Positions 20,201-59,090 of a stretch of DNA of 64,000 nt are shown here, one piece after another (positions within the stretch are counted from its first letter, which is position 1; each line of letters opens with the position of its first letter). Under the pieces are notes generated by a model. That model saw nothing but the letters and a program-made list of their open reading frames with translations. It was not told the DNA's origin and did not search any database. The translations under genes and the position numbers were made by a program. The stretch comes from Prorocentrum cordatum (lineage: Eukaryota > Sar > Dinophyceae > Prorocentrales > Prorocentraceae): NCBI GenBank assembly GCA_963575745.1, contig CAUYUJ010018295.1, positions 2,501 to 66,500 of the forward strand, given 5' to 3'.

Positions 20201-20714
20201 TGAGAATATTGAGCGTCTTGGGATGGAGATCTTGGGAGATAGTAAGACTGTTGTAAACTGGATGTGTGGTGAGTGGCAGATTCGCAACAAGCAGTATGTA
20301 CGACTGGTGGGAACACTACAAAATACGGTATCGATGCTGTCTGGATGGGGACTGACCTCACCTGCATCGGGACAGAATCTGTATAAGCATTTCTTTCGTG
20401 AGGGTAATGAGCGTGCGGATAAATTGTCGTGGGAGGCCAGAGGTGGCCAAACTATTACTCGCTGGTTTGCATATGATAAGTTCCTCAGTACTCGTAAGAC
20501 TGCTCTCCGTGGTGCATTCGATGGGGGTGTCAGTAATGAAGGATGTGGAGGTGGGTGGTGGCTTCAGATTGGCGTTGTAGGTAGGGGTTCCAGCGTGCAG
20601 GTTGATTTTCCCATCTCCTCCTCCTCCTCCTCCTCCTCCTCCCTCCTGCACCAGCTCGCACAGCTTCCATTGGCACGATGTGGCCGAGGAGGCGATGAGC
20701 TTGCCTCCTGGTAG
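17127..20714 (+). CDS. LINE-A ORF2: endonuclease C-terminus, reverse transcriptase, permuted RNase H
   Basis: Main open frame of ORF2 (1195 codons; no ATG start is implied, because a frameshift joins it to the upstream endonuclease). In order: end of the AP endonuclease with VLDYVGVS (Asp95) and SDH (136-137); a charged linker; RT from about 355 with GKAPGPDNVT, YGFRSGRKTSE, motif A LDILQAFDN (Asp492), motif B TGGVEGP (Glu556) and motif C FWADN (Asp605, Asn606); a connector; then RNase H-like GDS (Asp1038), REGNERAD (Asp1098) and FDGGVSNEGCGGG (Asp1132). Canonical RNase H has the FDGG-type motif first, so the order is permuted. The frame ends early because of a shift in a (TCC)n run at 20611-20640; the last RNase H motif continues in another frame. 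Confidence 0.88.
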   Translation: MEASGIAGESTEIDTGMEEGADDGNPYMTQTKRGARKARPHRLVSGFEIRRASRLQSMRRALLDFCGLWGIRMENTFGQRRVTFKSGTGVEKVLDYVGVSRRLHRQELTVGWMLPSEVGHAWTEHPCSRYERALSDHACIVVRLSCAPSAKRRTQPARKFIHLQPVSQLEFAKNMDDRGSRYRALCQENADPEDRQEMLDTLGPDLIKAAEETPQKDINPRNNVPKKSEIHWAAQVSKREALRRGDREEAKRCSKIVRRERRRLEARVQRWRTEMNTRRRRRAKTETLILANGMESQNREEWGDEILGHMKSKVEDPEAREVTLRELQSLRGLCSGSGSSEVFSMSLLLRARAKLSTGKAPGPDNVTVTMLKQLSWASVRRVLVSFQGVYSRRLCCPDSWRQLAATLMPKEMDIQHLTDTRMLCLQSCLMKWYMTCIVMLIEKRIEEHRHYVCLYGFRSGRKTSEITSVAKRLSQHSAVWGKGDSLWLANLDILQAFDNVTPCLAMRCLRALDIPADLIVALIEPMMDNQCVASFEGIEASSAVYWDKSIRTGGVEGPMIFLAVSIVLWRDVIDRWRQETQYGITLENDERMFNGERMTHSFWADNLLLYAKTRTDLELMVRDMSIPLMNAGMTWKPKSLMYIYFGAPPGIPPSPEQDIRVLVPPSDAALGIREVVLPRVQAFEILGATLEETWKDHSDSEAMLQKAQRMFFGEIAYYRCSGIDLAERFTRYQAKVIAALLFNCEGRTPDYSTIAAVHYFEGRCLAIMSGIRKRRTEGWSEFQRRRYKAGRQSFAGLGFRSAVQIWIFRCWDWAKDVSVAASIRMRRYTTHTEEEEGETVPNRRQRKTRAMAAAATSQTYHVSQISQMSSGCRRRTPDDQPAIPEESDMSREWMISRLAMLHGRGKWTEHRDTCILAMPVKDRKQLTRMNIGGRPRGHTAWDWCLCDLFGCEWYLSFDSSAGSREKYCKHLLTVIGMQHLFDLFVLPRPPGVRHVKAEEEEESEMNERMSKRIAANFENETEWRCENIERLGMEILGDSKTVVNWMCGEWQIRNKQYVRLVGTLQNTVSMLSGWGLTSPASGQNLYKHFFREGNERADKLSWEARGGQTITRWFAYDKFLSTRKTALRGAFDGGVSNEGCGGGWWLQIGVVGRGSSVQVDFPISSSSSSSSSLLHQLAQLPLARCGRGGDELASW

Positions 20715-20802
20715 CACGGTAACCTGCTGTGAACTAGCTGCCTGCGCTGCCCTGACGAGAGCTGCTGCTAAGGTGGCGTGCGCTCTGCTACGACCTACCT
20801 AA
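20602..20802 (+). pseudogene. LINE-A ORF2 3' end, frameshifted RNase H tail
   Basis: After the (TCC)n slippage site this frame gives HWHDVAEEAMSLPPGSTVT then CCELAACAAL. These align with WRDVAEAALLLPRDSTVT and DAELTALERL at the C-terminus of LINE-D. It carries the Glu of the AEL-type RNase H motif (as ELAAC). The Asp before it is replaced by Cys. It is part of ORF2, displaced by a frameshift. Confidence 0.7.
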
Positions 20803-27974: not shown

Positions 27975-27995
27975 CCGTAGCCATTTTGGCTCAAG
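27975..27995 (+). promoter_or_regulatory. Dinoflagellate spliced-leader sequence at the LINE-B 5' end
   Basis: CCGTAGCCATTTTGGCTC followed by AAG matches bases 2-22 of the dinoflagellate spliced leader exactly. The base before is C, where the leader has A, G or T. The next bases are CTGC rather than the GT of an SL RNA gene's donor site, so this is a reverse-transcribed, trans-spliced mRNA end and not an SL RNA gene. Confidence 0.9.
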
Positions 27996-28182
27996 CTGCA
28001 TCGTGCAGTCAGGGATTTCGGTTTCGCTTCTCCATACCCAAACTGTACACCACACATCCCAATGTTGTCTCTCGCTTGTGTTGTTCTCGAACATTATTGT
28101 GGATTAGTCTTCAGTATTCGTCACGGCGGAGACCGAGAGGAAGAGGCATCTGGAAGGCAGCTCTTTTCAGACAGCTCGTGAG
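27996..28182 (+). other. LINE-B 5' leader
   Basis: Starts CTGCATCGTGCAGTCAGG, which LINE-A shares; CTGCA-TCG-TGCAG forms a small hairpin. A stop at 28105-28107 sets the upstream limit of the ORF1 frame. No ATG is found in the ORF1 frame before 28387. Confidence 0.6.
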
Positions 28183-29640
28183 GTGTACGATTTCAGGGCT
28201 CTGGACAGAGCGTGCAAGAAGAGAAAAACGGCACAGGCTCAGGAGGGCCCCATTGACGGTGACGATTTCTCAGATTTGGGAGCAGAAGAAGGTAATTCTT
28301 TGGATCTTGATCAGATTGATAATTTCATTCAGACACTTAATCGTCCAGGAACCAGATACGTCGGAAATCACCTTGCCATTCCAGAAATGACGTCAGAGGA
28401 GCAGCAGGCAGCACTTCTACGACAGCAGCAGCAGGCAGCAGGGGAAGCAGGAGAACTTGCGGCAGCAGCAGTTGCGGTATCTGGACAGCAGAATATGGGT
28501 GATGGTGATGCTGATATGTTTCTTCCTGGAAAGCGTGATGGTGAGACTGGAGAGGATGAGCGGACAAAACGTGCTCGTGCGCCAGCGTCTCCCATGGCTG
28601 CAAAAGGTCTTGGAAGAGGCCCAGCAGTTGGGATGGAGCAAGTCGTGACGATTTCAATTCTCAGAGGTGAATTTTCTTCGATGAAGGATGAGTTGAAGGC
28701 GACTTTCACAGATATTAAAAATGAGATGGTCAAGGATGTGAATCGTGAACTGGAACCGCTGCGCAAAGATATCTCAGATCTTCAGAAGGGCCAAGAAGAT
28801 CAGAAGAAAATAAATGCACAACTTTTCGCAGCCATCCAAGGAAACCCCCCTCATAATCTTGGTGTTGGAACGGGAGCGCCACCGTCGGAGGCAGGATCAA
28901 CGGGATCGACGAGATTCACAGCCTCACGCGTTGAGTGGAACAAAACCAGGGCCGATTTTAAACCAGGATGGATCAGTTTGCAAGGCTGGACTTCAGGAGA
29001 TCCGAGGGACCTGACGGCGAGGACAAACAACATCATGTCGGAGGAAAGGTGTGCTAGGATTGTCACGTGGATGGTGGAGAATATCTTTTGTAAATTTGAA
29101 GATCGTTCGAAGCAGGTGCCAGTAAAAGTTCTTGATGATATAGCGACTCAGAGAGAGAATACACGTAAACCATACGGCTTGTTCAGGATCAAGTTCATTC
29201 TTGAGACCAGCATTACGTGGGATCAGATTTGGGATTTGCAACGTGCTATTCATGAAGCAGTTACGTCCAAGACTGGAGAGCTTTGGGCTGATGATAAGTT
29301 TGGTCCAGCTTTTCAGAATTACATCAGTGTGAAGGTGGAGACGGCCCCATGGAAAGTTCAACAAATACAAGCGGGATCGAAGCTCATTGCCACGTACCAC
29401 AAGCGCAAGGGCAGTACTCCTCAAGAGCAAAATGCTACTGTGCGTGTGGAATACGGGCCACCCAGTATTTCCTGGGCTTGGGGCTTCCCCAACAAGAATG
29501 ACATGAGCAACAAGGTATGCTTGGGCACGTGGTCACCTGAGGAGGGGTGGAAATTGAAGACCTCCGAGGTTGAGAAGATCAGCGCGTCGATCCACGTTGC
29601 GAACTGGCAGACTTTACTCAACCAGCAGAACCGATTTTGA
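28183..29640 (+). CDS. LINE-B ORF1 protein
   Basis: Probable RNA-binding, particle-forming protein of the LINE. The frame is open from 28108; the listed start is a GTG, and the first in-frame ATG is 28387 (MTSEEQQ). Conserved N-terminal YDFRALDRACKKRK precedes that ATG. Then come a Gln/Ala-rich stretch (about residues 70-105), a KRDGE/KRAR basic patch (possible nuclear signal), a coiled coil (about 165-215) and the conserved C-terminal domain. That domain has WISLQGWTS, KPYGLFRIKF, TWDQIWDLQRA and ETAPWKVQQIQAG, aligning with LINE-A, C and D. No zinc knuckle is visible. It ends in TGA followed directly by the ORF2 frame. No disabling mutation is seen. Confidence 0.85.
   Translation: MYDFRALDRACKKRKTAQAQEGPIDGDDFSDLGAEEGNSLDLDQIDNFIQTLNRPGTRYVGNHLAIPEMTSEEQQAALLRQQQQAAGEAGELAAAAVAVSGQQNMGDGDADMFLPGKRDGETGEDERTKRARAPASPMAAKGLGRGPAVGMEQVVTISILRGEFSSMKDELKATFTDIKNEMVKDVNRELEPLRKDISDLQKGQEDQKKINAQLFAAIQGNPPHNLGVGTGAPPSEAGSTGSTRFTASRVEWNKTRADFKPGWISLQGWTSGDPRDLTARTNNIMSEERCARIVTWMVENIFCKFEDRSKQVPVKVLDDIATQRENTRKPYGLFRIKFILETSITWDQIWDLQRAIHEAVTSKTGELWADDKFGPAFQNYISVKVETAPWKVQQIQAGSKLIATYHKRKGSTPQEQNATVRVEYGPPSISWAWGFPNKNDMSNKVCLGTWSPEEGWKLKTSEVEKISASIHVANWQTLLNQQNRF
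29638..29640 (+). other. ORF1/ORF2 in-frame stop (LINE-B)
   Basis: TGA followed by CGACGG. The same frame runs on for ten codons to TASWNIK. The first ATG (29683) lies after the active-site WN, so ORF2 needs the codons before it. Confidence 0.85.
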
Positions 29641-31605
29641 CGACGGCCACAGCGGATTCGGACCGCATCGTGGAATATCAAAATGAAGGGTGATGGGGTT
29701 GAAACATCGCACGCTTTGGATTTCCTGAAACATGAGGGGATGGAACTTATCGACCTCCAGGAGTGCCAGAATGTACTGTCGTACCTCGTGCACGAATTAG
29801 GGTATGAAGCTAAGTGGCCCACACAACATGTTCTTGGGGATGATGCTCGCGATCGCAGATGCATTGAGGGGAATGCAGGGATTTTGATTGCAAACGGGTT
29901 GCAGGACAGCATTCTTGAGACTAGAGAGCGGAGAAGATTCGTTGTTGTTGCCTTACGGGGTCCCAGAATCGGTGCTCTAATAGTTGCCTCATTGTATCTA
30001 CCTCATGTAGAGTTCTATGGGCGTTCGGCTGCTCAAATGGATCGTATGTTTACTTTCTACCAGGCCATCTTGCTAGAGCTTGTTGAGACGATCATCGAGC
30101 TTAGGAAAAAGTTCGGGATAAAGGAGGTTGTTGTCATGATGGATGCGAATGTTGAGGTCCACCAGGATGTCATCATTGATAGGGTGCAGGTCACGGGGAA
30201 AGGTGTGCAGGCCTCCACAGGTAAGAGTAGCCATGGAGGGTTTGAGAAAATGCGCGAGAAGTACAGAGACTACATGAGTAGGAGCTTGTGCATGGCCATG
30301 GCACGTCTGCAGTTGACCCTGATAAACACTCACGGTGAGAGATGTACGACGTTCCGAAGTAGCATGAACACATATAAGGTTTTGGACTACATAGCTGTAC
30401 CTAAAGATTGGTGTCACGCAGGTCTAGACCCTAGATGCGATTTTATCAAGCCGCTTGGAGATAAGAGAGTGGACCGTTGGAGTGATCATAAGATGGTTAG
30501 TTGTTTCCTTCCTGGACCCCCAGCTCGTGTTGGTAAAGGGCCGCGTGTCCTTGGCAGCCTGGCGAGATGGAGACCAATTCCAGGGAAAGATGTTGAAGTG
30601 CGTCGTGTTATTGCTGAGCGTGTCTTGGGAGTTTCGAACGGGGAGTGGGATAGGAGAAGAGCGACGAAAAGGAGGAGGGACAAGGGCGAGGAGAAGGTTG
30701 AGGACCCGGAGGGGTTGATGGAGCAGCAGGTGTGCAGGACTAGGTGGAGAACGATCTCTTTAGATATCTTCGAGGAGCGTTTGAAGGCTGGCGCGGTCGA
30801 GGACAAAAAGCTCTTCGAGCTGAAGACCTCGATTGGCAACGATCTGAAACTCACGGAGGAGGAGAAGGAGGTTCGGGACTACCACTATGGGGTGCACAAG
30901 AGGTGGAAGAAGGGAGAGGTGGATGAGAAGGAGTTTAAAGATTCTCGGCGTAGGTGGAATCGCGTCCGACGTGAACTTCGGAGGCGTATCTTGGAACATA
31001 AGTATCGGGATGAGGGTAAACCACACACAGTCGTCACACACATGAAAAGTGACGGTACCCTGACTGAGAATCGAGAGTCTTGGAAAGCTGAAATCGCCAA
31101 AATCGCCCGGGTGAAATATTCCAGCCAAACACTTCATCAACAAACTGTAGAATGCTTGGCTCGACTTAAGCAGCGAGCGATCCAGCACACTCGACTCAAT
31201 GCAGATTCTTCTCCCATCACGATGGGTATTCTACATAAAGCGAGAGCTCGCCTCAAGGTGGGCAAGGCAGTTGGCTATGACGGTATATCAGCAGCTCTTT
31301 TACGCAGCCTCTCATGGGAGGCCCTCAGAGTGGTCTTGGACGGTTTCCAGCAGCTGTATGCTAGACGTTTGCAGTCACCACCTTCTTGGAGAAAATTACT
31401 AGCTACACTCATCTTGAAGGACACGAAGAAGCCAGAGTTCACCAGTACGCGTACTTTGGCTCTCAATAGCGTGCTTTCGAAATGGTATACGGCGTGCTTG
31501 TGTATCTTACTCAATCTACATGTTGAACAAAACACACCTCGGACTGGAATCAATTTGCATGGTTCTCATGAGGGACGAAAATGCAGCGAAATAGCAGCAG
31601 GATGA
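29641..31605 (+). CDS. LINE-B ORF2 part 1: AP endonuclease and RT fingers
   Basis: Counted from 29641. The endonuclease is complete: SWN (Asn12), LQE (Glu41), SLYLP (Tyr), MDAN (Asp168, Asn170), LDYI (Asp249) and SDH (282-283). This is the residue set used by APE-type LINE endonucleases to nick target DNA. A basic linker (about 300-480) leads to the start of the RT, with GKAVGYDGIS and HEGRKCSEI. The frame stops at TGA (31603-31605) and continues in the same frame from 31606, so parts 1 and 2 are one gene broken by a single codon. At that position LINE-A has Ala and LINE-D Leu. The first ATG is at 29683, after SWN. Confidence 0.88.
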   Translation, partial: RRPQRIRTASWNIKMKGDGVETSHALDFLKHEGMELIDLQECQNVLSYLVHELGYEAKWPTQHVLGDDARDRRCIEGNAGILIANGLQDSILETRERRRFVVVALRGPRIGALIVASLYLPHVEFYGRSAAQMDRMFTFYQAILLELVETIIELRKKFGIKEVVVMMDANVEVHQDVIIDRVQVTGKGVQASTGKSSHGGFEKMREKYRDYMSRSLCMAMARLQLTLINTHGERCTTFRSSMNTYKVLDYIAVPKDWCHAGLDPRCDFIKPLGDKRVDRWSDHKMVSCFLPGPPARVGKGPRVLGSLARWRPIPGKDVEVRRVIAERVLGVSNGEWDRRRATKRRRDKGEEKVEDPEGLMEQQVCRTRWRTISLDIFEERLKAGAVEDKKLFELKTSIGNDLKLTEEEKEVRDYHYGVHKRWKKGEVDEKEFKDSRRRWNRVRRELRRRILEHKYRDEGKPHTVVTHMKSDGTLTENRESWKAEIAKIARVKYSSQTLHQQTVECLARLKQRAIQHTRLNADSSPITMGILHKARARLKVGKAVGYDGISAALLRSLSWEALRVVLDGFQQLYARRLQSPPSWRKLLATLILKDTKKPEFTSTRTLALNSVLSKWYTACLCILLNLHVEQNTPRTGINLHGSHEGRKCSEIAAG

Positions 31606-34041
31606 AAGAGCTTGATTAGACACGCCAGGCTCTGGGGTAAGCACGAGAACGCATGTTTGGGAGTTCTAGATGTTGAATGCGCCTTTGACAACATCACGAT
31701 ACCGATGGCAGATAGAGCGATGTATGATATTAATGTTGATCCAGAGCTAGCGTATGCGATCTTGGAGCAGAATGCAGATGTAACGGCGACTTTTCGATTT
31801 GGCCCAGTGGAATCAGAAAGCCTACCGTGGAGCTCATGCATCAAAACGGGGTCCCTTGAAGGCCCTGATATTTGGAACATTGTCACGATTGCGTGCTTGG
31901 GCGGTGTGCTCTCGGACTGGGAGCAGAAAGGTATAGGCCTGAAGCTTTCACTTGAGGCTGCTTCTATCACGATCTCGCACTTCATTTGGGCGGATAATTT
32001 TGTTTTACTTGCTGATTCTAGACCGGCACTGAGGGAGATGATCTGGCAGCTCACTGTACCACTACATGCATGGGGACTCAGATGGATGCCTACCTCGCTC
32101 GAGTACATGGACATTGGCGCGCTGAAGAATGTCTTTGACCCGCTCACGGTTATTATGACACCACCAGGTCTGGAGAGATTGGGAAGTTCCGGCTCAGGTG
32201 TTAGAAACCATATGTGTGGAAGTTCAAGCTCGGGTGTTAGAAACCATATGTGTGGAAGTTCAAGTTCAAATGAGGGTATGGGAATTCCCTGTGTTGAACC
32301 AGACGTGGCTCAAGCCAATGGGGCTCAGGGTTTGTCTCCATCGGAAGTTGTCAACCAGACCACTGTGGAACTTAAGCAGGTCGACGAGATCATCCTTTTG
32401 GGCGCGAAGTTGAACAGAACACTTGAGGACTATCACGATATCCGACACAGACTGCAAAAAGGATTTTCAGCTTTTTGGCGAGATCGACGATATTATCAGA
32501 GTATGGTCATTCCTTGGCGACGAAAGTTCAAAATATCTGATGCGAGAGTGAGGGTGCAGATTCTTTATGGAGTTGAGGGTTCATCTTCAGATATTGGTGT
32601 TTTGAGACTTCTACACAAGGAGGAGGGCAAGATGCTCTCTCGCATGTGCTGGCGTCAGAAGCGCAACGGAGAGGAGTTCGCGACCTTCATCACACGTATG
32701 TTTCGTCGTGGGCGCTCGATGTTATTCAAGGAAGGGAAACCGTCCTTAGTCCAGCTGTATCTGCACAAGCAGTTCTTGTGGGCCAAGGATATTGCCACGG
32801 AGTGCTTTGAAAATATGCCAGACTCGCTGCAGGACTTGAGCATCTCTGCAACGGGAGGGTCTCAGTTGATTGGGAAGAACGTGGGGGAGGATATGATGGA
32901 GGTGGAGGTGGAGGAGCCGAACAGGAGGAAGAGGAAGAGCGCTCTCATCAGGGAGGCGAAACGTGCTTGTGAAGGTTTGTCTCAGAACACGTCCAGGATG
33001 CAGACCAGGGCCCAGGAGAAGCAGGTTCGATTTCCAGGAAGAAAGCTTCGTTTTCGAGATGGGGAACATGTTGACCGAGGTGCTCAGAGTAGGCTTCTTA
33101 TGTTGCATGCAGGCTTCGCATGGACTGCTAGACGGGATGACTTTATTGCGACTCTTGACACACAGAGTCCACGTGAGGTGACGAGAGCTAGGGGACAGTC
33201 AACTAAGCTTCTGGGTATGTGTCCGTGGGCCAGGGTGTTCGAGGAGGTGGCGGGGAAGTTCTGGATTGACGGTATTGCTTGGGATGAGGCTAGCTGGATA
33301 TCCTTTGTGAGGACTGTCTTGGAGGACGCTCCTGAGATGCTGAACCTTTGTGTGTTGAAAGACCCTATGCCCTGGAAGGGGTCGGAGGAGGAGGAGACGA
33401 TTAAGAAGCAGGAGGACCCAGATAAGTTGGCCAAACGTATCATTGCTGTATTCCTGGATCATACTGAATTTGAGTTTGTGCCAGGGAAAATTTCTGTGGA
33501 ACTGATGGGGGATTCACAATGTGTGATCAGGTGGTTGGAAGGTTTGAGCAGTATCTCTAATAGAAAGTATGCCAGTCGTGTGATGTGGGCGCAGGACACT
33601 ACAAACTATCTAGCTGACAGATGTGGACCACGGGCAGCCAATTTAGGACGGAACGTGTGGAAGTGGGTTTATAGGGAGGGCAATACTCGTGCTGATGAAT
33701 TAACGTGGACCGCGCGGAGAGGTGAATGTTACGAACACTATGACACTTGTTTTCTTCAGGATGTGAAAGATTGTAAAGTTATGATCTCGGGGATCAAAGG
33801 AGGCTTTGATGGTGGGAGATCGATTCTTGGTGTAGGCTGTGGCTGGTATCTGGATTGCTATGTGTGTAGTGCTCTTCCCTCTTCCTCTTACTATAATCAG
33901 ACTGGCTGGCGCCAGAATGTAGGTTTCAAAAGCTTCCTTCTCCCAGCGCAATGCACAATCACAGAGGCTGAGTTAGAGGCTGCCCGAGAGCTCCTTTTAG
34001 GAGTGGTGCAATTCCTGAGTTTGTCAGGTTTTCCCCTGTAG
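31606..34041 (+). CDS. LINE-B ORF2 part 2: RT palm and permuted RNase H
   Basis: Same frame as part 1 after the premature TGA; first ATG-like start at 31612. RT motif A VLDVECAFDN (Asp677 of the full frame), motif B KTGSLEGPDIWN (Glu740) and motif C WADN (Asp785, Asn786). A 12-residue tandem repeat (GVRNHMCGSSSS-like, 32196-32268) sits after the palm. A long connector follows, then an RNase H-like region: ELMGDSQCVIRW (Asp1291), YREGNTRADELT (Asp1352), GGFDGGRSILGVGCGW (Asp1390) and TEAELEAARELL (Glu1444). Distances are 61, 38 and 54 residues. It would degrade the RNA strand during cDNA synthesis. The order D70-like, D134-like, D10-like, E48-like is a circular permutation of the standard RNase H fold. 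Confidence 0.88.
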   Translation, partial: KSLIRHARLWGKHENACLGVLDVECAFDNITIPMADRAMYDINVDPELAYAILEQNADVTATFRFGPVESESLPWSSCIKTGSLEGPDIWNIVTIACLGGVLSDWEQKGIGLKLSLEAASITISHFIWADNFVLLADSRPALREMIWQLTVPLHAWGLRWMPTSLEYMDIGALKNVFDPLTVIMTPPGLERLGSSGSGVRNHMCGSSSSGVRNHMCGSSSSNEGMGIPCVEPDVAQANGAQGLSPSEVVNQTTVELKQVDEIILLGAKLNRTLEDYHDIRHRLQKGFSAFWRDRRYYQSMVIPWRRKFKISDARVRVQILYGVEGSSSDIGVLRLLHKEEGKMLSRMCWRQKRNGEEFATFITRMFRRGRSMLFKEGKPSLVQLYLHKQFLWAKDIATECFENMPDSLQDLSISATGGSQLIGKNVGEDMMEVEVEEPNRRKRKSALIREAKRACEGLSQNTSRMQTRAQEKQVRFPGRKLRFRDGEHVDRGAQSRLLMLHAGFAWTARRDDFIATLDTQSPREVTRARGQSTKLLGMCPWARVFEEVAGKFWIDGIAWDEASWISFVRTVLEDAPEMLNLCVLKDPMPWKGSEEEETIKKQEDPDKLAKRIIAVFLDHTEFEFVPGKISVELMGDSQCVIRWLEGLSSISNRKYASRVMWAQDTTNYLADRCGPRAANLGRNVWKWVYREGNTRADELTWTARRGECYEHYDTCFLQDVKDCKVMISGIKGGFDGGRSILGVGCGWYLDCYVCSALPSSSYYNQTGWRQNVGFKSFLLPAQCTITEAELEAARELLLGVVQFLSLSGFPL
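32196..32268 (+). repeat. 36-bp in-frame tandem duplication in LINE-B ORF2
   Basis: Two copies of a 36-bp unit containing GGTGTTAGAAACCATATG and TGTGGAAGTTCAAG. This adds 12 residues without breaking the frame. It is a recent slippage product between the RT and the connector. Confidence 0.8.
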
Positions 34042-34524: not shown

Positions 34525-34532
34525 ACTAGGTT
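34525..34532 (+). repeat. LINE-E left target-site duplication
   Basis: ACTAGGTT, repeated at 35008-35015 directly after the A-rich tail. Confidence 0.75.
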
Positions 34533-35007
34533 CTGATTGGGGAAAGACTTATATAGGCATGAATTCAGGGAAGATAACACACGGGCTGATGAACTTACAC
34601 ATTTGGCCCGCGAGGGCCACTGCTTCTACAACCAATATGAGTACAAGTTTAGCTTTGAGGACTTTCTACAACCTATCGCCTGTCGTGGTGGATACGATGG
34701 GGGAGTTTGCAGCAAAGGAACGGGGTGCGGCTTTTGACTTCAAGTGGGTTTCATCAATCACAGATATGATTGTAATAAGTGTATCTCGTGTTCTCCTCTC
34801 CCCTCCTCCTCCCCCTATTCCGTGTCCTCTAATATGCCTCTCGTTTGGAGGGATGTGTGCGAAGCCGCGTGGTGCCTGGAGGGTGCTACGATAACCGACG
34901 CCGAACTTAGTGCTGCTGAGGCGCTTACTATCGCTGTTGTGCATTTGGCGCAACAGATTCTGGCCGCCAGTTGACCCAGCTGGAGCATCGGTCCGAAAAC
35001 CCAAAAA
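34533..35007 (+). mobile_element. LINE-E, 475-bp 5'-truncated 3' fragment
   Basis: Only the end of ORF2 (second half of the RNase H-like region), a short 3' UTR and the tail GGTCCGAAAACCCAAAAA. It is flanked by an 8-bp duplication (ACTAGGTT) and sits in the loop of a B-type hairpin. This is the typical outcome of incomplete target-primed reverse transcription. Confidence 0.88.
34537..34974 (+). pseudogene. LINE-E ORF2 remnant (RNase H motifs)
   Basis: One frame reads GKDLYRHEFREDNTRADEL (Asp codon 34588), RGGYDGGVCSKGTGCGF (Asp 34696), a TGA at 34735-34737, then VWRDVCEAAWCLEGATIT and DAELSAAEAL (Glu 34903). It keeps the permuted order RAD, DGG, AEL seen in the larger copies. The TGA falls where LINE-A and C have Trp (GCGGGWW, GCGCGCW), a one-step TGG to TGA change. 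Confidence 0.82.
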
Positions 35008-39798: not shown

Positions 39799-39823
39799 GG
39801 CTCAAGAAACGTGTCGGCTCAAG
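39799..39823 (+). promoter_or_regulatory. Two spliced-leader relics in tandem
   Basis: GGCTCAAG at 39799-39806 and again at 39816-39823 matches the last eight bases of the dinoflagellate spliced leader. Tandem truncated leaders are the expected trace of repeated rounds of trans-splicing and reintegration. The first copy overlaps the GGC of the target hairpin arm. Confidence 0.65.
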
Positions 39824-39917
39824 GTCGCGTACCCGCTGGTTTTGTCCTGCCTGGGCTACCTCCGCCAAGGCCAGCGGTAGTGATCAGCAGAGCCTGAAGA
39901 GCATATCGTAATTCCTC

Positions 39918-41321
39918 GTGCAAGTATTTGGGACCACGTCGTACGACACACCCGAGTCGAGACAAGCTTTGTTGGAAGCAATTGGATTGGGGCGTTGGAA
40001 CGAAACAGTTGCTCAGTGGCATCAGAATACAAGTCAAGATCTTGACTGCCCATTTACACCCCGAGAGGATCGTGTGGATCATTTCGACTACTTGGATCAA
40101 TTTGAACCTTGGGACGCTGCTGATTTAAGATCTTTGGAGCGTGCATCAGGGAAACGACAGCGTGAGGACGACAAAGCACTTCTGAACAAGTGGGGAGTTC
40201 CATCACAGATATCAGAAGCAATAATGTTGGGTGCATCCTCTTCGGTTGAGGCAAATATGAACGCTGCTGTGGACACAAATAAAGAGAACAAGAGACCGAG
40301 GAATGGAGGTGATATTCAAAAACAACGGGAGGAGATGATGAAAACTGCCACCACTGGGTTTGAGCGTTTCGTGATGGATCATTTCTTCAAAGCAGAGGAT
40401 AGTAAGGAGGAGATTTTACAGACCATTCAGAACACGAATAATCACATCAAATCTGTGGAGATTACACTGCAGAAGCACGATGACAGAGCTAACAAGATGG
40501 AGGAAAGGATGAACAAGTTCGAAGAGGCCCTGCGTCAAGTACATAACGGAAGTGGTGCTGGATCAGATGTTTCTCGTACTACGGCTGGTGGAGGTATTGT
40601 TGGCGGTGGGCCGCCTGGCTTATCTCCCAGTTCGCGTTTCCAGGATTTCAGACCGACATACATTGAGTTGAAAGGTTGGGTGACGAATTGGTCAGATCAT
40701 GGCACGCGGGCAGAGCAACTCCTAACGTGGAGTGATTGCCAAAAACTTATCGACAATTGTTTGGAGCGATGCAATCAACTCGAGAAAGATGCAGTTGATC
40801 GTGAGACAACTGAGCGTATCAATTCGGGCAGGTATATGTTTGGCAGTGTCAAGATCAGTTTCAAACCCAATACGAGTAGAGACCTGCTTTGGACGATTAA
40901 AAAGAAGTGGGATGCAATCATTAAGAATACGGTCGACGGGCACAATGGTTTGCCTTTACCCGCAGTCTTGGTTGAGGGCCTTGCGATTCAGTTTCCAGGA
41001 TCAAATTTACGTGTTCAAATCGAGTGCGCACCTTGGAAAAGGGATCACGTTAAAGCTGTGGCGAGGTTTTGCGGAGCTTTCAGGACGATGACGCAACAGC
41101 ACGCTCAGATCGAAGTGAGAGGAGAAATTGGACCACCGCGATCGTTGATATGGACCGTCGCCAAGGGTGCTACGCGTCCTATCAATATTGCAACATTCAC
41201 TTCAGCTCGCAATACTTGGGAGGTGCACGAGCCGCAGTGGCAGCAGGTTGTCAGCGCATTTCCTGCGGTGGCGGCTGTCACTAAGCAGATGCTAGAGAGT
41301 GAGGTCAACAGACGCCAATGA
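39918..41321 (+). CDS. LINE-C ORF1 protein
   Basis: Open from 39918 (GTG); the first in-frame ATG is near residue 103 (MLGASSS), at the same conserved place as in LINE-A and B. N-terminal DLRSLERASGKRQRE is matched upstream of the ATG in those copies. A Lys/Arg-rich stretch (NKENKRPRN) may be a nuclear signal. A coiled coil spans about residues 155-215. The C-terminal domain has YIELKGWVTNWSD, GRYMFGSVKISF, LLWTIKKKWDAI and ECAPWKRDHVKA. Intact, ending at TGA (41319-41321) in frame with ORF2. By family it should bind LINE RNA. No named domain can be assigned by eye. Confidence 0.83.
   Translation: MQVFGTTSYDTPESRQALLEAIGLGRWNETVAQWHQNTSQDLDCPFTPREDRVDHFDYLDQFEPWDAADLRSLERASGKRQREDDKALLNKWGVPSQISEAIMLGASSSVEANMNAAVDTNKENKRPRNGGDIQKQREEMMKTATTGFERFVMDHFFKAEDSKEEILQTIQNTNNHIKSVEITLQKHDDRANKMEERMNKFEEALRQVHNGSGAGSDVSRTTAGGGIVGGGPPGLSPSSRFQDFRPTYIELKGWVTNWSDHGTRAEQLLTWSDCQKLIDNCLERCNQLEKDAVDRETTERINSGRYMFGSVKISFKPNTSRDLLWTIKKKWDAIIKNTVDGHNGLPLPAVLVEGLAIQFPGSNLRVQIECAPWKRDHVKAVARFCGAFRTMTQQHAQIEVRGEIGPPRSLIWTVAKGATRPINIATFTSARNTWEVHEPQWQQVVSAFPAVAAVTKQMLESEVNRRQ
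41319..41321 (+). other. ORF1/ORF2 in-frame stop (LINE-C)
   Basis: TGA followed by CAAAAA. The frame continues QKRYWSKGLRIGTWNVGNSG with no ATG anywhere before the next stop. Confidence 0.85.
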
Positions 41322-41627
41322 CAAAAACGATATTGGAGTAAGGGACTTCGTATCGGAACATGGAATGTAGGTAATTCGGGTGTTTCCAACTCGCGTGGGA
41401 CCGAGGTTCTAACATCTCTGAGGAAGATAGGAGCCTCTTCAATTTTCGGTTTGCAAGAGTGTGAGTTCTTTGACTCAGCTGAATTAGATAGACTCGGTTG
41501 GCATTTTAAACTTTCCAGAGATAGACGTGCAGGCTTGTTGTATGCCCATGGGTGGGCCCAACTCCTGCGCGAGTGCGTTACAGACTGCGATAGATTTGTC
41601 TTGGGTGTGTTTGGAACGGAGGCGTGA
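41322..41627 (+). pseudogene. LINE-C ORF2 5' remnant: endonuclease N-terminus
   Basis: In frame with ORF1 past its TGA: GTWNVGNSG (Asn motif), GLQECEFFDS (Glu motif) and a RAGLLYAHG strand, ending at TGA 41625-41627. The Tyr, Asp-x-Asn and SDH motifs and the RT fingers are gone. Confidence 0.82.
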
Positions 41628-41699
41628 GGAATCATTTTATCATTTTATCTGGGCGGTGGTGAATCATTTTATCCGGTGGTGAATCATTTTATCTGGGCA
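41628..41699 (+). repeat. Deletion scar with triplicated GAATCATTTTATC
   Basis: GAATCATTTTATC occurs three times (about 41629, 41661, 41681), with ATTTTATCTGGGC and GGTGGT fragments between. The last copy runs into the RT motif C codons (HFIWADN). Endonuclease and RT sequence present in LINE-B (about 1.7-1.9 kb) is missing here. Template switching or slippage at this short word is the likely cause. Confidence 0.8.
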
Positions 41700-43427
41700 G
41701 ATAACGTGTACCTCGTCAGTCGTAGCCGTGAGGAGCTTACTCGTATGGTAAGAGACTTTACACTTCCACTTTACAACTTCTCGATGCGATGGAAACCCAC
41801 ATCGCTGAAGTACATGGTGTGCGGAGCTCCTGCTGTCTTGGATGAGGACGGGAATATTCCGCGTTCGATGGACCTGAGAATACCGATCTTCTCAGATGCA
41901 TGTGGTGGGAGGAATGCAGTTCAGCAGATTGATGAGTTATGTTGCCGTCGAGTCGTTTCTATGGACGTACTGGGCACGCAGCTGCATAGTGAATATAACT
42001 GTTCTGTACATCGTGATGTTTCTTTTCGCCTTGACTGTGCTCGTCGTGCATTTTACTCCCAGGCAGGATATTTCAGATCACATTGTATTCCTCTCAAGGA
42101 TAAGCTGCGGAGATACCAGGATAGAGTCCAGAGCCTGGCTCTGTGCGGTATGGAGACCACCACTGCAGATTCTTATACTCTTTCGTTTCTCCATTCTTTC
42201 GAAGGGAAGTGCCTGAAGATGATGATCTCGTCTCGGAAAGGGCCGACGGAAACGGAGCAAGCTTATCAGCAGAGGAGATATCATGTTGCACGAGAACGTT
42301 TCTTGAAGGCTGGGTACTCCTCTCTCGTACAGCGTTATCTGATATTGCACTGGAATTTCGCAAAAGATATTGCAAGTTTCGCAAATGGCATGATTGTTGA
42401 GAAAGTGATTGACTTGAAGGCGGCGGAGAGGACATGGCGCGATTCCCGTATGGCGTGTTTATGTTTTGGACCGTACACTGACCGCACTCGTACACTTATG
42501 AGCGAGACGATGAGACACTTTGGCAACTGGTCGGAGGCTTCTTCTTACAAACGTCGCTGTCGAGGTACGGAGAGTATTGGACAGAGATCATGGCAATATA
42601 CATTAGCTGAGTTTTTCGGAGATGATTGGTGGATTCATTTCGCAGGTTCCCAGCTTGGATTTATGCAATACGTCACGCACCTTTGTACTCAGAGCATGCT
42701 TCAATGTTTCCAGGAGGTGTCGACGTGCGGACCTGTGAGTTCCCCCGCATATTTGGCGCCCTCCGAGCATGGTGAGATTCAGGTGAGCACGGATGATAGT
42801 CCGATGGCTGCCGAGAAACTTGCAAAGCGTATCGCCCTTCATAATATGAAAGCAACTCGTTGGAACCTGGAGGCCCCTGGAATCCCTCTGGAGGTGGTGG
42901 GTGACTCGCTCCTCGTGGTTAGCTGGGCTACGGGACGGTGGCGTGCAGATAATAGATCATATGCTGATAGAATATCAAAAATAATCAATACGCTTGATGG
43001 GCTTTGTAGCAGCTATAATATACGACCTCCAGCGCCGGGTATGGATCTTATTCGTCATGATTTTCGGGAGTGGAATACTCGTGCCGACGTTCTTACACAC
43101 CAGGCCCGTGAGGGCCAGATATTTAGTTCAGAATGTAGTCCGTATACACATGATTATGAGACAGAATTTTACGTTGCTGCTGCTATTCGGGCTGGCTTCG
43201 ATGGCGGCGTGTCGTCTGAGGGATGTGGGTGCGGTTGCTGGATTGACATAGGCCTCAAACCTCGGTATTGGGATCGACGGGACCCCGCTCAGCTGATATG
43301 GAAGTCAGTTTTTGAGAGGGCTTGGCTTATTTCTCCGACCACAACTGTTACTGATACAGAACTCAGTGCTTTGGAGTGCATCGTGACTGCGCTCCCACAG
43401 GCAGTTCTATGGTTATCGCAGACTTGA
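41676..43427 (+). CDS. LINE-C ORF2 3' part: RT motif C onward and permuted RNase H
   Basis: 583 codons, same frame as the upstream remnant. Starts at VNHFIWADN (motif C, Asp9, Asn10), so the polymerase lacks motifs A and B and cannot work. RT thumb-like and connector regions follow (HSFEGKCLKMM, WHL/NFAKDIA). The RNase H-like motifs are complete: VVGDSLLVVSW (Asp410), HDFREWNTRADVLTHQA (Asp471), GFDGGVSSEGCGCG (Asp509), TDTELSALECI (Glu562). Spacing 61, 38, 53. The protein ends about 20 residues later, as expected if the last helix is the domain's C-terminus. No frame damage in this part. Confidence 0.85.
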   Translation: MVNHFIWADNVYLVSRSREELTRMVRDFTLPLYNFSMRWKPTSLKYMVCGAPAVLDEDGNIPRSMDLRIPIFSDACGGRNAVQQIDELCCRRVVSMDVLGTQLHSEYNCSVHRDVSFRLDCARRAFYSQAGYFRSHCIPLKDKLRRYQDRVQSLALCGMETTTADSYTLSFLHSFEGKCLKMMISSRKGPTETEQAYQQRRYHVARERFLKAGYSSLVQRYLILHWNFAKDIASFANGMIVEKVIDLKAAERTWRDSRMACLCFGPYTDRTRTLMSETMRHFGNWSEASSYKRRCRGTESIGQRSWQYTLAEFFGDDWWIHFAGSQLGFMQYVTHLCTQSMLQCFQEVSTCGPVSSPAYLAPSEHGEIQVSTDDSPMAAEKLAKRIALHNMKATRWNLEAPGIPLEVVGDSLLVVSWATGRWRADNRSYADRISKIINTLDGLCSSYNIRPPAPGMDLIRHDFREWNTRADVLTHQAREGQIFSSECSPYTHDYETEFYVAAAIRAGFDGGVSSEGCGCGCWIDIGLKPRYWDRRDPAQLIWKSVFERAWLISPTTTVTDTELSALECIVTALPQAVLWLSQT

Positions 43428-53791: not shown

Positions 53792-53929
53792 TTTGGTGAA
53801 TTTTGAGAGCAGATTTTTGCGCGTCGCAGTGGCATATAAACTCCTCTCTGACAGCAGCTCAGCGCTCCCGATGTATTTTCTTATGAGTTGACTTCCGGGA
53901 ACTGAGCCAATGTGAACATCGACAAAAAT

Positions 53930-54003
<74 letters not shown>

Positions 54004-54119
54004 CTTTTGTGTGTGTGTGTTTTTTCTTTATATATATATAATATTTTTCGTTTCTTATATATATATATCACTACTTCGATTCTCAGCATTCTTATCAGTG
54101 GGAGGAGCTCTACGAGTTT
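53792..54119 (+). repeat. B cassette tail with 70-T tract, interrupted by LINE-D
   Basis: B body with CATATAAACTCCTCTCTGAC. 70 T at 53934-54003, then CTTTTGTGTGTGTGTG and TA-rich runs. The normal B version here is a short TTTCGAAAAATCTATTTT. It ends GGAGCTCTACGAGTTTCCCC, at the LINE-D 5' join. Confidence 0.82.
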
Positions 54120-54120
54120 C

Positions 54121-54646
54121 CCCCATGGTCTCATGTCGTCTGCAGGGAAATCGTGCTTCATACGCGAGTGTTCGGATCAAATTCAATGCGGGCACTGAAA
54201 ACGATGACCTTTGGAGCGCCAAGAAGATTTGGGAAAATGCTTGGAACGATGCTGCTCAGAAAAATCTGCTGCTGGATCAGATGGCGGGATACAGTGCCAA
54301 TTTCCCCTCACGAGTAAAGTTCAGGGTTGAGAGCGCACCGTGGAAGACACCACACCTGCAGGCCATCGGTCGGTTTCACGGCATCTGGGCCAGAGACTCG
54401 TGCCTTCGCAACATCAAACTCAAAGGAACGGCTGGCAGCGGGGCTACACTTTCTGAGATGTGGACCGACCCAGTGGAAGACGGAAATCGAAAGCAGTTGG
54501 GTGAATTCGCCGCCGGTGGCCAGTACGGTGGTTCGGGCCAGTGGCGTATCATCAAAGAGAACTGGGATGCCTTTGCGTTGTTGCACCGTTTGGCCATCAC
54601 GTCAGAGACGATGGAGCAGAGGCTTGCTACCGTCAGCCGTCGTTGA
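54121..54646 (+). pseudogene. LINE-D ORF1, 5'-truncated
   Basis: Only the C-terminal domain survives: ASYASVRIKFNAGT, DLWSAKKIWENAW and VESAPWKTPHLQAIGRFHG, aligning with the ends of LINE-A, B and C ORF1. The open frame extends upstream through the 70-T tract as a Phe run, which is not coding. Ends at TGA 54644-54646, in frame with ORF2. Confidence 0.82.
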
Positions 54647-54827
54647 CAAACGTCGCGGGGCTCGGGTGCTTTCTCCGTCACCTGCGCCTCGCAGAACATC
54701 CAGAAGGCGGGTAAGGCCGCCAATTATCAGTATAACGTTCTGTGTCTTCTATCTCACGATGTCCATTGGGATCTGCTGGGCTTGCAGGAATGTGAGAATG
54801 TCGACTTTAAATTCAGACTGGTTTGCT
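54647..54827 (+). pseudogene. LINE-D ORF2 5' end: endonuclease N-terminus
   Basis: Reads on in the ORF1 frame after TGA CAAACG: CASQNIQKAG (the WN position has decayed to QN) and LLGLQECENVDFKF (Glu motif). A shift near 54.8 kb passes into the long frame that ends at 57296. Confidence 0.75.
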
Positions 54828-57296
54828 AAGTTGGGGGTTAGTGCACAGCTATCTTCCTGTCGCAAGGCAGGCATATTGTACCGTGGGGGAACGGCAATAC
54901 GTGAGCAGTCTAGTGGTGACAGATGGGTGGCTGTCCTTTTCAATCGGGTTATCTTCGTCTCACTCTACCTTCTCGACAGCTCTGTGGGGGAGGCTCTCAA
55001 CATCACGGATGTGTGTCTTCGTTCTATTTCTCTTCTCAGGCGGTACTGGGAAGGTTTGCATGGTTCTCTCAAGTTGGTTGTTGCTGCAGATGCGAATGTG
55101 GAAGTCAGACCACATCTCACGGACATCGAAGGCACCGCCTTGACGGGCCCAGGTCTGCTAGGCGCTGATGTTTGTCTTGGGGATGGTGGGATGGAGAGGA
55201 ACAGGAGGAGGAGGTATTCGTTACTACGTATCAAGGTGGAGGACTGGATGATGGAGGAGAGCTTGATTGCCAGCAACACGTTCAGGGAGAGAGAGATCAC
55301 ATGGTACGGATATCGGACAGGGGCACGAGAGGCGGGGAAGTTCTTGGACTATGTGCTAGTATCTCGTGGTACCGTGTTTGCTTCCGCCTCGGTGTCCTGG
55401 CCTCGCGAGTTGGGCAGTACTCGCAGGTTTAGTGACCACGCGTTGGTGCAAACGGAGTTGCAGCTTGATAGACCAGTCGTCGCGCCCAGATACGTTGCAC
55501 GGGCTGTGCGGTGCCTATCCAGATGGATGCCGCTGACTTGGCACGACGGCTGCTCGTTTCAGACACGTCTCGACTCGTCAATCGACGAGAACCTCAGCCT
55601 CGGAGAGATTGAGAAACGTTGTCGTCGTGAGGCGTCTGCTACTTCGACTGCCCCCTGCTCGTCTATGCTCCCTCCCCGTCGGCACCCTGACCTTATTCGA
55701 TTGCAGGAGGAAGTGAAGAGGTGGGAGGGGGACAAGACGTCGGAGGAGTTCAAGAAGATCAGGAGGAGGAGAGACCAGGAGAAGAGGAAGTTCGACAGGA
55801 TATGGACGGCTTGGAGGTTCTCGGAAGGGCGGAGGAGGACACAGAAGCACACGATCGAGAGCGTCCACGGGTCCGTGGATCGGGTTGATTGGCACGCCTC
55901 CCTCTTGGATCACACGCAGAGCTACACATATGTGGACGAGCGCGAGCGCACCCATCTCTCTCTGGCCTCGCTGCGTGCACGCGTGGCTGCTGGATCCCAG
56001 GATGTTCCACGTCTGCCTGTCTCAGCGGTGTTTCGAGCTCGTTCTCGTCTTCATACGGCAAAGGCGTCAGGGCCAGATGGGATCTCCGCGGAGGTGCTCA
56101 AAGAACTCCCGTATCGGACCGTTCGTATTTTTGCTGATCGTTTTGATGAGGTATATCGTGGTCTTCGTGCCGTGCCTGGATCTTGGCGTCAGACCTTCAT
56201 TGCCCTGATGCCGAAAAAGTTGAAAGTGCTCACCCATCTCCCGGAGGCTACTAGGAGTATTGCCGTGGAGAGTGCTATCAAGAAGTGGTACTCGTCGTCG
56301 GTCCTTGTCGTCCTCGAGCCCTACTTGACCAAGGTGTTGCCCCATATCTCGCTCTTCGGGTTCGCGGCCGAGCGCTGCTGTGGGGAGATCTCGGGGGCCC
56401 TCAAATGTGCGGCCCAACACGCGGCAGTCTGGGGAAAGGATAGGTCTCTGCTGATCGCCAGTTTGGACGTTAAACAAGCTTTCCAGAATATGACGGCTCA
56501 GAAGATCACACTTGCGTTTGAAAGACTCGGTATTCCTCCGTATCTCCAGCTGGCTCTACTGGAACCCCTGGCGGACGAGGTCCCCACGGTGCTCGTCGAG
56601 GGTCTCGGGGTCCCTGAGGTCAAAGTAGGCAAGCACGTTAGGACGGGAGGTAACGAGAGCCCAGCATGTTGGAACGCTGTAGTGGCAGCCATGTGGGCTG
56701 ATATTGTTCAGGGCTGGGACAAGGGAGGCCTAGGCTACGAGTGTATCAACCCCAACCAGACAACTGAGACCGCCGTGGTAAACCATCTCATCTTTGCTGA
56801 CAATGTGTACATCATTGGCTCAGGCCTGAATCCCGAGGCTTTTCAACAACAGTTGAATGACTTTACTCTTGCCTTGCATCAATGGAAGTTTTATTGGAAG
56901 TTGGATAGCTTACAGTTTGCTGCTATCGGTTGCTCCCCTGGGAAATTCTTTACCAGTATCCATCGCTCTAATATGCCTGGGGATATCGGCCTCGATGGGG
57001 CCGATGAGTACGTCAGTGTCGAGCTGCAGCAGGTTTCCGTCCTCAACGTACTGGGGAATGACATCGCGGTTTCTTTTCGCGAGCCGCATGTTGATGTTGA
57101 CCGCCGTCTCAATGCTGCTCGCAAGGCATTCTTTGGGCATATCCAATACTTTCGATCCCGTGCAGTGCATTGGCATTTGAAGTTCAAACGTTATCAGTCC
57201 ATCGTGCAATCTACCCTGCTCTTCGGCTCGGAAGGTCTGACGTGGGAAAAGGACTCGATTCACAAAATTCACGTCTTTGAGGCACATGTTTGTTGA
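54800..57296 (+). CDS. LINE-D ORF2 middle: endonuclease and reverse transcriptase
   Basis: The frame is open from 54327, but its first ~158 codons overlap ORF1 and are out of frame, so real homology starts near 54800. Numbering from 54327: FVSLYLLDSS, ADANVEV (Asp255, Asn257), FLDYVLVS (Asp341) and SDHALV (370-371) complete the AP endonuclease. A basic linker follows. RT: AKASGPDGISAE, LFGFAAERCCGEI, motif A SLDVKQAFQN (Asp714), motif B RTGGNESPACWN (Glu777), motif C FADN (Asp825, Asn826). It stops in the connector (HVFEAHVC), where a one-base shift moves the reading into the next frame. GC-richer codons than LINE-C. RT and endonuclease look complete. Confidence 0.87.
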
Positions 57297-58600
57297 GGAT
57301 GTGTCATACATCGAAACCCGCCAGTGTATCCTGGGACATATGGCCCCCTGCTCGTTTGCATGTTGTTCGAAAGCTATTTCACGATCATGGGTTTCAGAGT
57401 TCGGTTCAACGTGTATTGCATCGTTCATGGTTGCTGGCAAAAGATGTTGCGGAGTATCATGCGACGAACTGGGATGCTGCTTATGCGAATCGGGAAGATT
57501 GCAAACGTCGTCGGCTGGCTCTCCCCATTGCTCCTCCCAATGGTGCCCGTGCCTGGAGGGACGCCAGAAGGATGCTGCTGTGTTCGTGTCCATCATGGGA
57601 GGGTGCTCGTTCAGACTTCAGTGAGGTCCTCAGACAGAGGGGATCGTGGAAGGAGGCTAGTGCTCTGAAACGTATTCGTGTCGGAGCTGGTGCATCAGGA
57701 GAAAGACCTTGGAGTTACATGGCATATATCCTATTTGGGGCCTCTTGGTGCAAGGACGGTGAGTTTTCCTGGAAAACGTTCCTCGACAAGATGCCTGATT
57801 ACCTGAAACACTGTGGCCATGAGAAAGCGTTTGAGTATTTCGTGTATTCTGGAAAGGGGACCGACTCCGTGGTGGAAAAGATGTCTTGGGATGAGTTGAT
57901 GTCTCAGGAGGTGTCTGGAGCGGGGGCGGAAAAGTTAGCAAAACGGTTAGCCATCCTAAATGAAAGGGCGACGGTCTGGGATGTTGTTTCGGATGGGCTC
58001 CCCGTGGAGCTCTGCGGAGATAGTCTTCTTATCATAAATTGGGTCCGTGGGAAGTGGAGGGTGGGAAATAACGTGTATCAAAAGAGAGTCGATAAGCTGG
58101 TGGATAAGATTGCGTGGCTGGAAAATCGATACCATCTCAGATCCAGTTTCCTTGGTCGTGACTTCCTCAAACATGGATTCAGAGAGAACAACCAGAGGGC
58201 GGATGCCCTCACACATTATGCGCGGGAAGGCCGCGAGTGTTGCACTATGAGGCCTGTTCCACCCGATCTTTTAGAGTATCATGAGCTTGTTGCCCTCCGC
58301 GGTCGTTTCGACGGCGGAGTGGATGCGTCTGGTTGTGGTATTGGTTTCTTTCTCGAGGCCGCCTTTCTCCCCCATCCTGAACATTGCTCCAAGCGCCTGC
58401 GGCATTCCGCTGCCCCCGACTCGCTTCAGCCTGCTGCCTCCTGTGACGGTCTCGTTTGGAGAGATGTTGCGGAGGCGGCCCTTCTCTTGCCTAGAGATAG
58501 TACAGTCACTGATGCCGAACTGACGGCGCTGGAGCGCCTCATTGGGGCGGCCGAGTGCGTGCTGAGAGCTCACAGAGAGCTCGAGGCGCCCTGCTGGGCG
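57290..58600 (+). CDS. LINE-D ORF2 3' part: connector and permuted RNase H
   Basis: Continues ORF2 after the shift near 57290. Connector motifs LLAKDVAEY and WSYMAYILFGASW match LINE-C. RNase H-like region, numbered from 57290: AKRLAILNERATVW, ELCGDSLLIINW (Asp244), HGFRENNQRADALTHYA (Asp305), GRFDGGVDASGCGIG (Asp341), WRDVAEAALLLP and TVTDAELTALERLIGA (Glu410). Spacing 61, 36 and 69. The open frame runs to 58720 into the satellite, because no stop is met at the element's end; homology ends near residue 430. The clearest copy of the four-motif set, including the Thr/Val-Thr-Asp-Ala-Glu-Leu helix that pairs with canonical Glu48. Confidence 0.85.
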
Positions 58601-58663
58601 TTTGGCTCGGGCTGGCTTCGACGGAGCCTTCGCTGCCCGCAAAACCGCAAAACCGCAAAAAAC
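58601..58663 (+). other. LINE-D 3' end and repeated CCGCAAAA tail
   Basis: GGCTTCGACGGAGCC hairpin-like segment, CTTCGCTGCCCG, then three CCGCAAAA-type units. The unit recurs in LINE-A (CCGCAAACCGCAAAA) and LINE-C (AGCCGCAAAAAG). Confidence 0.65.
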
Positions 58664-59090
58664 CAAGTTGACGGTTCACCGCCGGCGCCAGTACCTCGTA
58701 GAGCTCTTCGGCATCGATGAGCTAGAGGAATTCCGGCGCGGGGTGGAGCTAGTTGGCCGACCCGGCCCCGACGGACAAAGTGGTAACTTTTGGATGGTTT
58801 TGCGATTTTTTGAAAGATATTTGACCATTTATTTTGAGAAATCAGATTTTTCGCACCTGTAGACGACTATGAGGGCCTTCGCGTCTTACTATGAGCTCTC
58901 TAGATGCACTTTTACTATCAAAACACTTGGCGAAACCAACTTTATGTCGACATGAAAAAATCATGTTTTTTCTTTTTCGAGAAATGCTTCCAGAAGCCCT
59001 CTCTCTTGATGCTGAGCACTCTTACGCGTGTTAGAAGCTCTACGAGGTTCCCGGCGGTGACCAGTTTGACGGTTCACCGCCGGCGCCAGT
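58664..59090 (+). repeat. Hairpin right arm and complete B cassette
   Basis: After the LINE-D tail: GACGGTTCACCGCCGG, GCCAGT, then CCTCGTAGAGCTCTTCGGC to GCTCTACGAGGTTCCCGG, hairpin and GCCAGT. The head and early body are open and encode VELFGIDELEEFRRGVEL again. Confidence 0.82.

Follow-up and report, generated by a model that had tools for sequence, protein, structure and literature searches.

Does ORF2 of the LINEs at this dinoflagellate locus end in an RNase H domain whose two halves have traded places? The window (the whole stretch of Prorocentrum cordatum DNA that was analysed, 64,000 nucleotides) contains, all on the plus strand, LINE-A to LINE-D, four copies whose frames are long, and LINE-E, a fifth that is truncated at its 5' end (Table 1). 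In these five divergent copies, two of which (A and E) are incomplete, the C-terminus of ORF2 carries the motifs GDS, RExNxRAD, [FY]DGG and TxxxEL one after the other; in canonical terms this order reads Asp70, Arg/His, Asp134, then Asp10 and Glu48. We give a probability of about 0.88 to the reading that the C-terminus is a circularly permuted RNase H domain of the archaeal type, the type being assigned because Arg replaces the His that precedes the last Asp.

The LINE copies, their motifs and their relatives

The aligned protein stretches of LINE-A to LINE-E are 23-42% identical in pairwise comparison; divergence of this size marks them as distinct lineages, not as a single element that was copied recently. 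The reverse transcriptase in ORF2 scores above the Pfam RVT_1 cut-off of 29.6 in A (45.9 bits) and below it in D (28.6 bits) and B (19 bits). An endonuclease signal appears in D only (Exo_endo_phos, 12.5 bits, E 0.13, under the cut-off of 24.5). When nine frames were scanned whole, the four window frames that bear the domain gave no Pfam RNase H match at E <= 1. LINE-B ORF2 also contains a repeated stretch, GSGVRNHMCGSSSSGVRNHMCGSS, at 32191-32277, downstream of the reverse transcriptase motifs.

Much of what the preliminary description had read from the motifs was recovered. The spacing between the aspartates of GDS and NxRAD, given there as 60, 61, 61 and 61 residues in A, B, C and D, was reproduced, and FDGG does follow this pair in all four copies. 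The last motif had been drawn too narrowly: T[DE]xEL describes B (TITEAEL), C (TVTDTEL), D (TVTDAEL) and E (TITDAEL) but does not hold literally for A (TVTCCEL), and the ending xAxExL, claimed for all, is exact in D and E and fails in A-C. LINE-E, as had been stated, retains the last three motifs in order; GDS is absent from it and a TGA lies inside. In LINE-A the last motif stands in another reading frame, past a TCC-type microsatellite (Ser run at 20616-20642) within which the frame shifts at about 20616-20646. The database protein P0003, identical to LINE-A over the first 196 of its 249 residues, stays in frame across the microsatellite and has the same motif order.

Using a profile of four window copies, we found 14 database relatives among 8000 scored candidates; eight are complete, and all eight have the swapped order. 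Together with B, C and D this makes 11 complete domains with the swapped order in 11 of 11, a count to be read with the fact that the regular expressions used select on the motifs themselves. The 11 domains form about seven groups with a between-group identity of 28-51%, and their open frames stop 21-47 residues past Glu48. In an alignment of 19 rows, the five columns equivalent to catalytic positions are invariant wherever they are covered (D70 15/15, R 17/17, D134 17/17, D10 17/17, E48 15/15); invariant columns overall number 27 of the 195 covered by at least 14 rows. The D-E-D-R-D set of archaeal-type catalytic residues is thus kept in the domain.

Some features of the alignment deserve mention in their own right. 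In the aligned lineages β4 is directly preceded by a helix that shares a conserved core, R[ILM] (often AKRxA), and several of them have an acidic low-complexity stretch ahead of this helix. P0014, which EukProt lists under the green alga Pyramimonas, agrees with LINE-A over its C-terminal part at 41 of 44 residues, through either contamination or transfer.

The ends of the elements offer observations of a different kind. LINE-E bears hallmarks of insertion (E being the copy checked): its 5' part is missing, and ACTAGGTT, read as a target-site duplication, flanks it at 34525 and 35008. At the 3' end of each of the five LINEs (20888, 34109, 35014, 43719 and 58668) the element directly adjoins a sequence like TTGACGGTTYACCGCCGGCGCC, with up to three mismatches. 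This sequence forms the right-hand arm of a hairpin repeat and occurs 30 times in the window, five times after a LINE and 25 times beside a left arm, as judged by eye; the open frame of LINE-D reaches its stop only inside such a flanking repeat. The position of the 3' ends at the right arm, together with ACTAGGTT at both ends of LINE-E, points to the hairpin loop as a specific target of insertion. Directly before the ORF1 frame of LINE-B, at 27975-27995, lies a perfect 21-base dinoflagellate splice leader, identified with a pattern that we assume to be that of the leader. Its presence there implies that LINE-B RNA was probably trans-spliced and then reverse transcribed to its very end. The last 15 bases of this leader agree with a relic leader quoted in a passage of PMC12014239. 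Upstream of the LINE-C ORF1 frame, at 39799-39823, GGCTCAAG occurs twice with starts 17 bases apart; these possible leader relics, which are 8-base matches only, look like traces of repeated cycles of trans-splicing and retroposition. Elsewhere in the window, two matches to the Rfam family SNORA76 (H/ACA type) lie on the minus strand at 846-964 and 7237-7366 (46.5 and 44.1 bits, above the gathering score).

Table 1. Coordinates of the LINE copies in the window and of the two halves of the candidate RNase H domain (boundaries of the halves in LINE-D are approximate)
Feature	Positions	Strand	Content
LINE-A	ORF1 frame from 15063; ORF2 17109-20714	+	
LINE-A ORF2 frame	17109-20714	+	reverse transcriptase, then candidate permuted RNase H as far as the frameshift
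LINE-A first half	20211-20456	+	Asp70-like 20238; Arg 20397; Asp134-like 20418
LINE-A second half	20493-20790	+	Asp10-like 20520; Glu48-like codon 20731 in other frame; in-frame relative P0003
LINE-B	28108-34041	+	
LINE-B ORF2	29641-34041	+	two stop-to-stop stretches
LINE-B first half	33484-33732	+	Asp70-like 33511; Arg 33673; Asp134-like 33694
LINE-B second half	33781-34029	+	Asp10-like 33808; Glu48-like 33970
LINE-C	39912-43427	+	
LINE-C ORF2, C-terminal part	41628-43427	+	
LINE-C first half	42876-43124	+	Asp70-like 42903; Arg 43065; Asp134-like 43086; from motifs and AlphaFold2 model
LINE-C second half	43173-43418	+	Asp10-like 43200; Glu48-like 43359; from motifs and AlphaFold2 models
LINE-D	about 53912-58720	+	
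LINE-D ORF2	54318-58720	+	two frames; final open stretch 58668-58720 inside flanking hairpin repeat
LINE-D first half (β4, αB, αD, β5, αE)	57992-58240	+	Asp70-like 58019-58021; Arg 58181-58183; Asp134-like 58202-58204
LINE-D second half (β1, β2, β3, αA)	58283-58576	+	Asp10-like 58310-58312; Glu48-like 58517-58519
LINE-E, 5'-truncated	about 34537-34971	+	keeps αE (NTRAD 34576), β1 (YDGG 34693) and αA (DAEL 34897); one internal TGA

Rotation to canonical order and the predicted fold

A profile search with the halves swapped back, proposed in the preliminary description, gave a better match both to RNase H profiles and to solved RNases H. Against solved structures, the best match of the rotated five-copy profile was 3u3g (28.2 bits, E 1.5e-5), compared with 17.6 bits and E 0.021 in the natural order; at E <= 10, RNases H made up seven of the eight matches after rotation, counting 3hst, which we take to be an RNase H, versus six of 12 in the natural order. 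A profile of nine sequences gave 25.0 bits (E 1.4e-4, RNases H seven of nine) when rotated and 18.6 bits (E 0.011, five of six) in the natural order; its rotated form is weaker than that of the five-copy profile. The Pfam RVT_3 score rose on rotation in three cases out of three (from 13.0 to 17.1, from none to 14.1 and from 11.7 to 17.4). With longer tails the RVT_3 difference was small (rotated, 4/5 matched, best E 0.017; natural, 3/5, 0.032).

Eight plasmid and phage RNases H also served to build a canonical HMM, against which the 11 domains were scored at all possible circular cuts. The best cuts place αA ahead of β4, and those within 0.5 bits of the best all fall between Asp134 and Glu48 in ten of the 11 domains; the exception, P0007, has a best score of just 3.9 bits, and its tied cuts extend nine residues beyond Glu48. 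The rotated form outscored the natural one by 2.6-7.3 bits in all eight domains tested (P0001, P0005 and P0007 were left out of the 11). Summed over the eight, the score was 119.3 in the natural order and 150.9 after rotation, while shuffling of the second half gave 128.5 (sd 2.2, maximum of 300 shuffles 137.4). The eight domains are mutually related, so that their sum does not amount to eight independent tests. For single sequences, between 1 and 26 of 300 shuffles attained the observed gain (15/300 for LINE-C, 26/300 for P0008). In profile-to-profile comparison, global hhalign of the rotated family reached 98.6% with a score of 79.7 and set the Asp10 and Glu48 columns on their canonical partners, versus a score of 65.2 in the natural order. 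The corresponding local scores were 78.2 and 70.3, a gain that comes mostly from αA adjoining β4 and not from β1-β3. Taken as a whole, the hhalign probabilities of 97-98% and the structure-database matches point to homology with archaeal-type RNase H1, the signal being weak for the β1-αA half alone. For β1-β3 the assignment owes more to the motifs and to strand prediction than to sequence score.

The AlphaFold2 model of LINE-C 42798-43424 (pLDDT 87.7, pTM 0.84) shows the element order β4-αB-αD-β5-αE-β1-β2-β3-αA, permuted as expected. Its catalytic-equivalent residues are positioned on their elements as in RNase H1, judged by the placement that we presume each of them to have there, and the four acids would putatively share a single active site. 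As read from the motifs (11/11) and from this model, the order β4-αE followed by β1-αA departs from the canonical β1-β2-β3-αA-β4-αB-αD-β5-αE. The predicted order agrees with the chain cut between helix A and strand 4 that had been claimed at the outset. The linker of about 35 residues claimed with it corresponds to a measured 34-39 residues, but this is the distance from Asp134 to Asp10, so that the free linker after αE must be shorter.

Fold searches gave a mixed picture. LC11-RNase H1 (3u3g/4h8k), which we take to be of the archaeal type, matches the first half of the model (residues 18-109) over 80 residues at 24% identity (3u3g) or 78 residues at 23% (4h8k), a match that covers chain residues 24-140 or 25-139 and is wider than β4-αE. 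The second-half model alone matches 4h8k over 65 residues (chain 3-69, 23% identity). In both lists of structure matches (best 50 of each) the highest identities are those of RNases H. VIA Z for cellular RNases H was 3.9-4.3, and unrelated folds scored no lower (best 5.0 and 6.3). Foldseek placed no RNase H among the best 50 of 706 matches to the whole model or the best 50 of 369 to the second-half model; among the matches listed for the whole model, E <= 0.001 was reached only by four PelC chains (best E 2.6e-4, probability 0.90-0.93), with TM 0.24-0.31 and rmsd over 12. That sequential searches do not place RNase H first is expected of a permutant, but it is no proof of one.

Competing explanations and a possible role

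The unequal strength of the two halves invites a different reading, in which only β4-αE is RNase H and the strand-strand-strand-helix behind it is an unrelated domain with DGG and EL by chance, the enzyme being dead or completed by another protein. The family profile of the first half (nine sequences) does match the canonical C half with an hhalign probability of 97.9 and is clearly homologous on its own, whereas for the second half alone, compared with the canonical N half, the probability is 2.7-5.4% and the score 16.2 (12.0 with the wrong half), and unrelated folds rank above RNase H in structure searches with it. We nevertheless regard this explanation as improbable. Against it stand the invariance of the Asp10-like and Glu48-like columns, the predicted elements of the segment (three strands, then a helix that has the Glu close to its start), the alignment of 4h8k residues 3-69 to this segment, and a second-half family profile whose score was reached by 2/200 and 1/200 column shuffles, the summed score of the rotated domains likewise exceeding the shuffled-half null.

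More improbable still is a canonical RNase H with diverged β1-β3 and αA upstream of GDS, the helix before β4 being αA and the C-terminal segment a second, partial copy. A conserved helix is indeed present ahead of β4, both in the alignment and in the model (residues 2-18). Yet DG[SGA] does not occur within the 250 residues before GDS in any of the four window copies A-D, and a normal Asp10/Glu48 pair upstream of GDS, which the preliminary description had named as a refuting finding, did not turn up in these copies or in 11 GDS-bearing relatives, several of them short upstream. Plain DG dipeptides, found in B, D and some relatives, are not family-wide: the one common to D, P0001, P0006 and P0007 lies about nine residues ahead of the GDS Asp, which is too close, and another, about 81 residues ahead, is common to B and P0002. 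The match to canonical RNase H stayed almost the same when the upstream helix was included (71.2 with 13 sequences, versus 70.3 natural with nine and 78.2 rotated), and the acidic low-complexity sequence ahead of the helix in several lineages also speaks against an upstream half. As for the possibility that the order is an artefact, produced by repeats that were rearranged or wrongly assembled, the window is rich in repeats and two copies, A and E, are not intact; however, the same order recurs in separate copies as divergent as these and in relatives from other sources, and the domains lie in open frames that end shortly past Glu48, which leaves this explanation scarcely credible. On balance the domain is very probably a genuine, naturally permuted RNase H, and probably an active one.

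In such a permuted domain the new chain ends would lie between αA and β4, the old ends (αE and β1) would be joined by a short linker, and the chain would most likely fold to an ordinary RNase H core. Circular permutants of E. coli RNase H have been engineered; these are laboratory-made, not natural, and would show that the fold tolerates permutation. Placed downstream of the reverse transcriptase, the domain would most likely act as other LINE RNases H do and clear the RNA strand of the RNA:cDNA hybrid in the course of target-primed reverse transcription, and this removal would allow the second DNA strand to be made. Retention of all five residues across about seven lineages favours the view that the permuted domain is in use, and we consider catalytic activity quite likely. 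The domain probably arose when an archaeal-type RNase H was duplicated in tandem and the outer half on either side was then lost; no intermediate of this route was found among the sequences compared.

We lean, with some reserve, towards a scenario in which the ancestor of a diverse clade of dinoflagellate LINEs acquired, as a fixed feature, an RNase H that was active and naturally permuted, probably through duplication and outer-half loss, and in which the RT-proximal end at β4 may alter placement of the domain on the hybrid leaving the reverse transcriptase. The same scenario holds that RNase H is under-annotated in protist LINEs, since ordinary profiles miss the permuted form; given the lack of Pfam RNase H matches in the whole frames, LINEs that seem free of RNase H may carry a permuted one. 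If real, the arrangement would mean that evolution can link the old ends of RNase H and still keep the active-site set, and it would offer about seven divergent lineages in which this joining can be studied.

Comparison with known systems

Archaeal-type RNases H, with their D-E-D-R-D pentad and the distinction between Arg and His, are treated in parts of PMC5348765 and PMC4640811; the former takes Sulfolobus tokodaii RNase HI (3aly/2ehg) as archaeal type. According to the same accounts, elements of plants and oomycetes have acquired such enzymes on several occasions, so that capture itself is not new. Like plant L1 and oomycete L1/Utopia, the LINEs described here are non-LTR elements with an archaeal-type RNase H that has D-E-D-R-D. 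Unlike the present LINEs, those elements are characterized, in the relevant portions of PMC5348765 and PMC4640811, by domain capture and by position relative to the reverse transcriptase, with no permuted order, and 'permut' has 0 occurrences in the main text of either paper. SymbioLINE of Symbiodinium (PMC5890265) resembles our elements in being a two-ORF dinoflagellate LINE; no RNase H is described for it among the places listed, 12 of 36.

The preliminary description knew of no LINE with a permuted RNase H, and this stands: no natural permutant was found in the literature searched, which had preprints and most subscription journals outside its scope and in its largest search comprised the best 20 of 1,432 papers. 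The main text of a paper on the RNase H-like superfamily (PMC3985635) has no word beginning 'permut' or 'circular', and no permuted RNase H is described in the portions considered of PMC2628886, PMC5408684, PMC3578095, PMC7824862, PMC3710099 and PMC10830420. As far as found in this partly covered literature, the permutation, unlike the capture, is new.

The LINE domain stands close to archaeal-type RNase H1. The two share D-E-D-R-D, the GDS and RExNxRAD motifs and the same predicted elements, and among solved proteins the best sequence matches of the LINE domain are archaeal-type RNases H1. They differ in that the LINE domain runs β4-αE first and β1-αA second, and in its long, variable β2-β3 loop.
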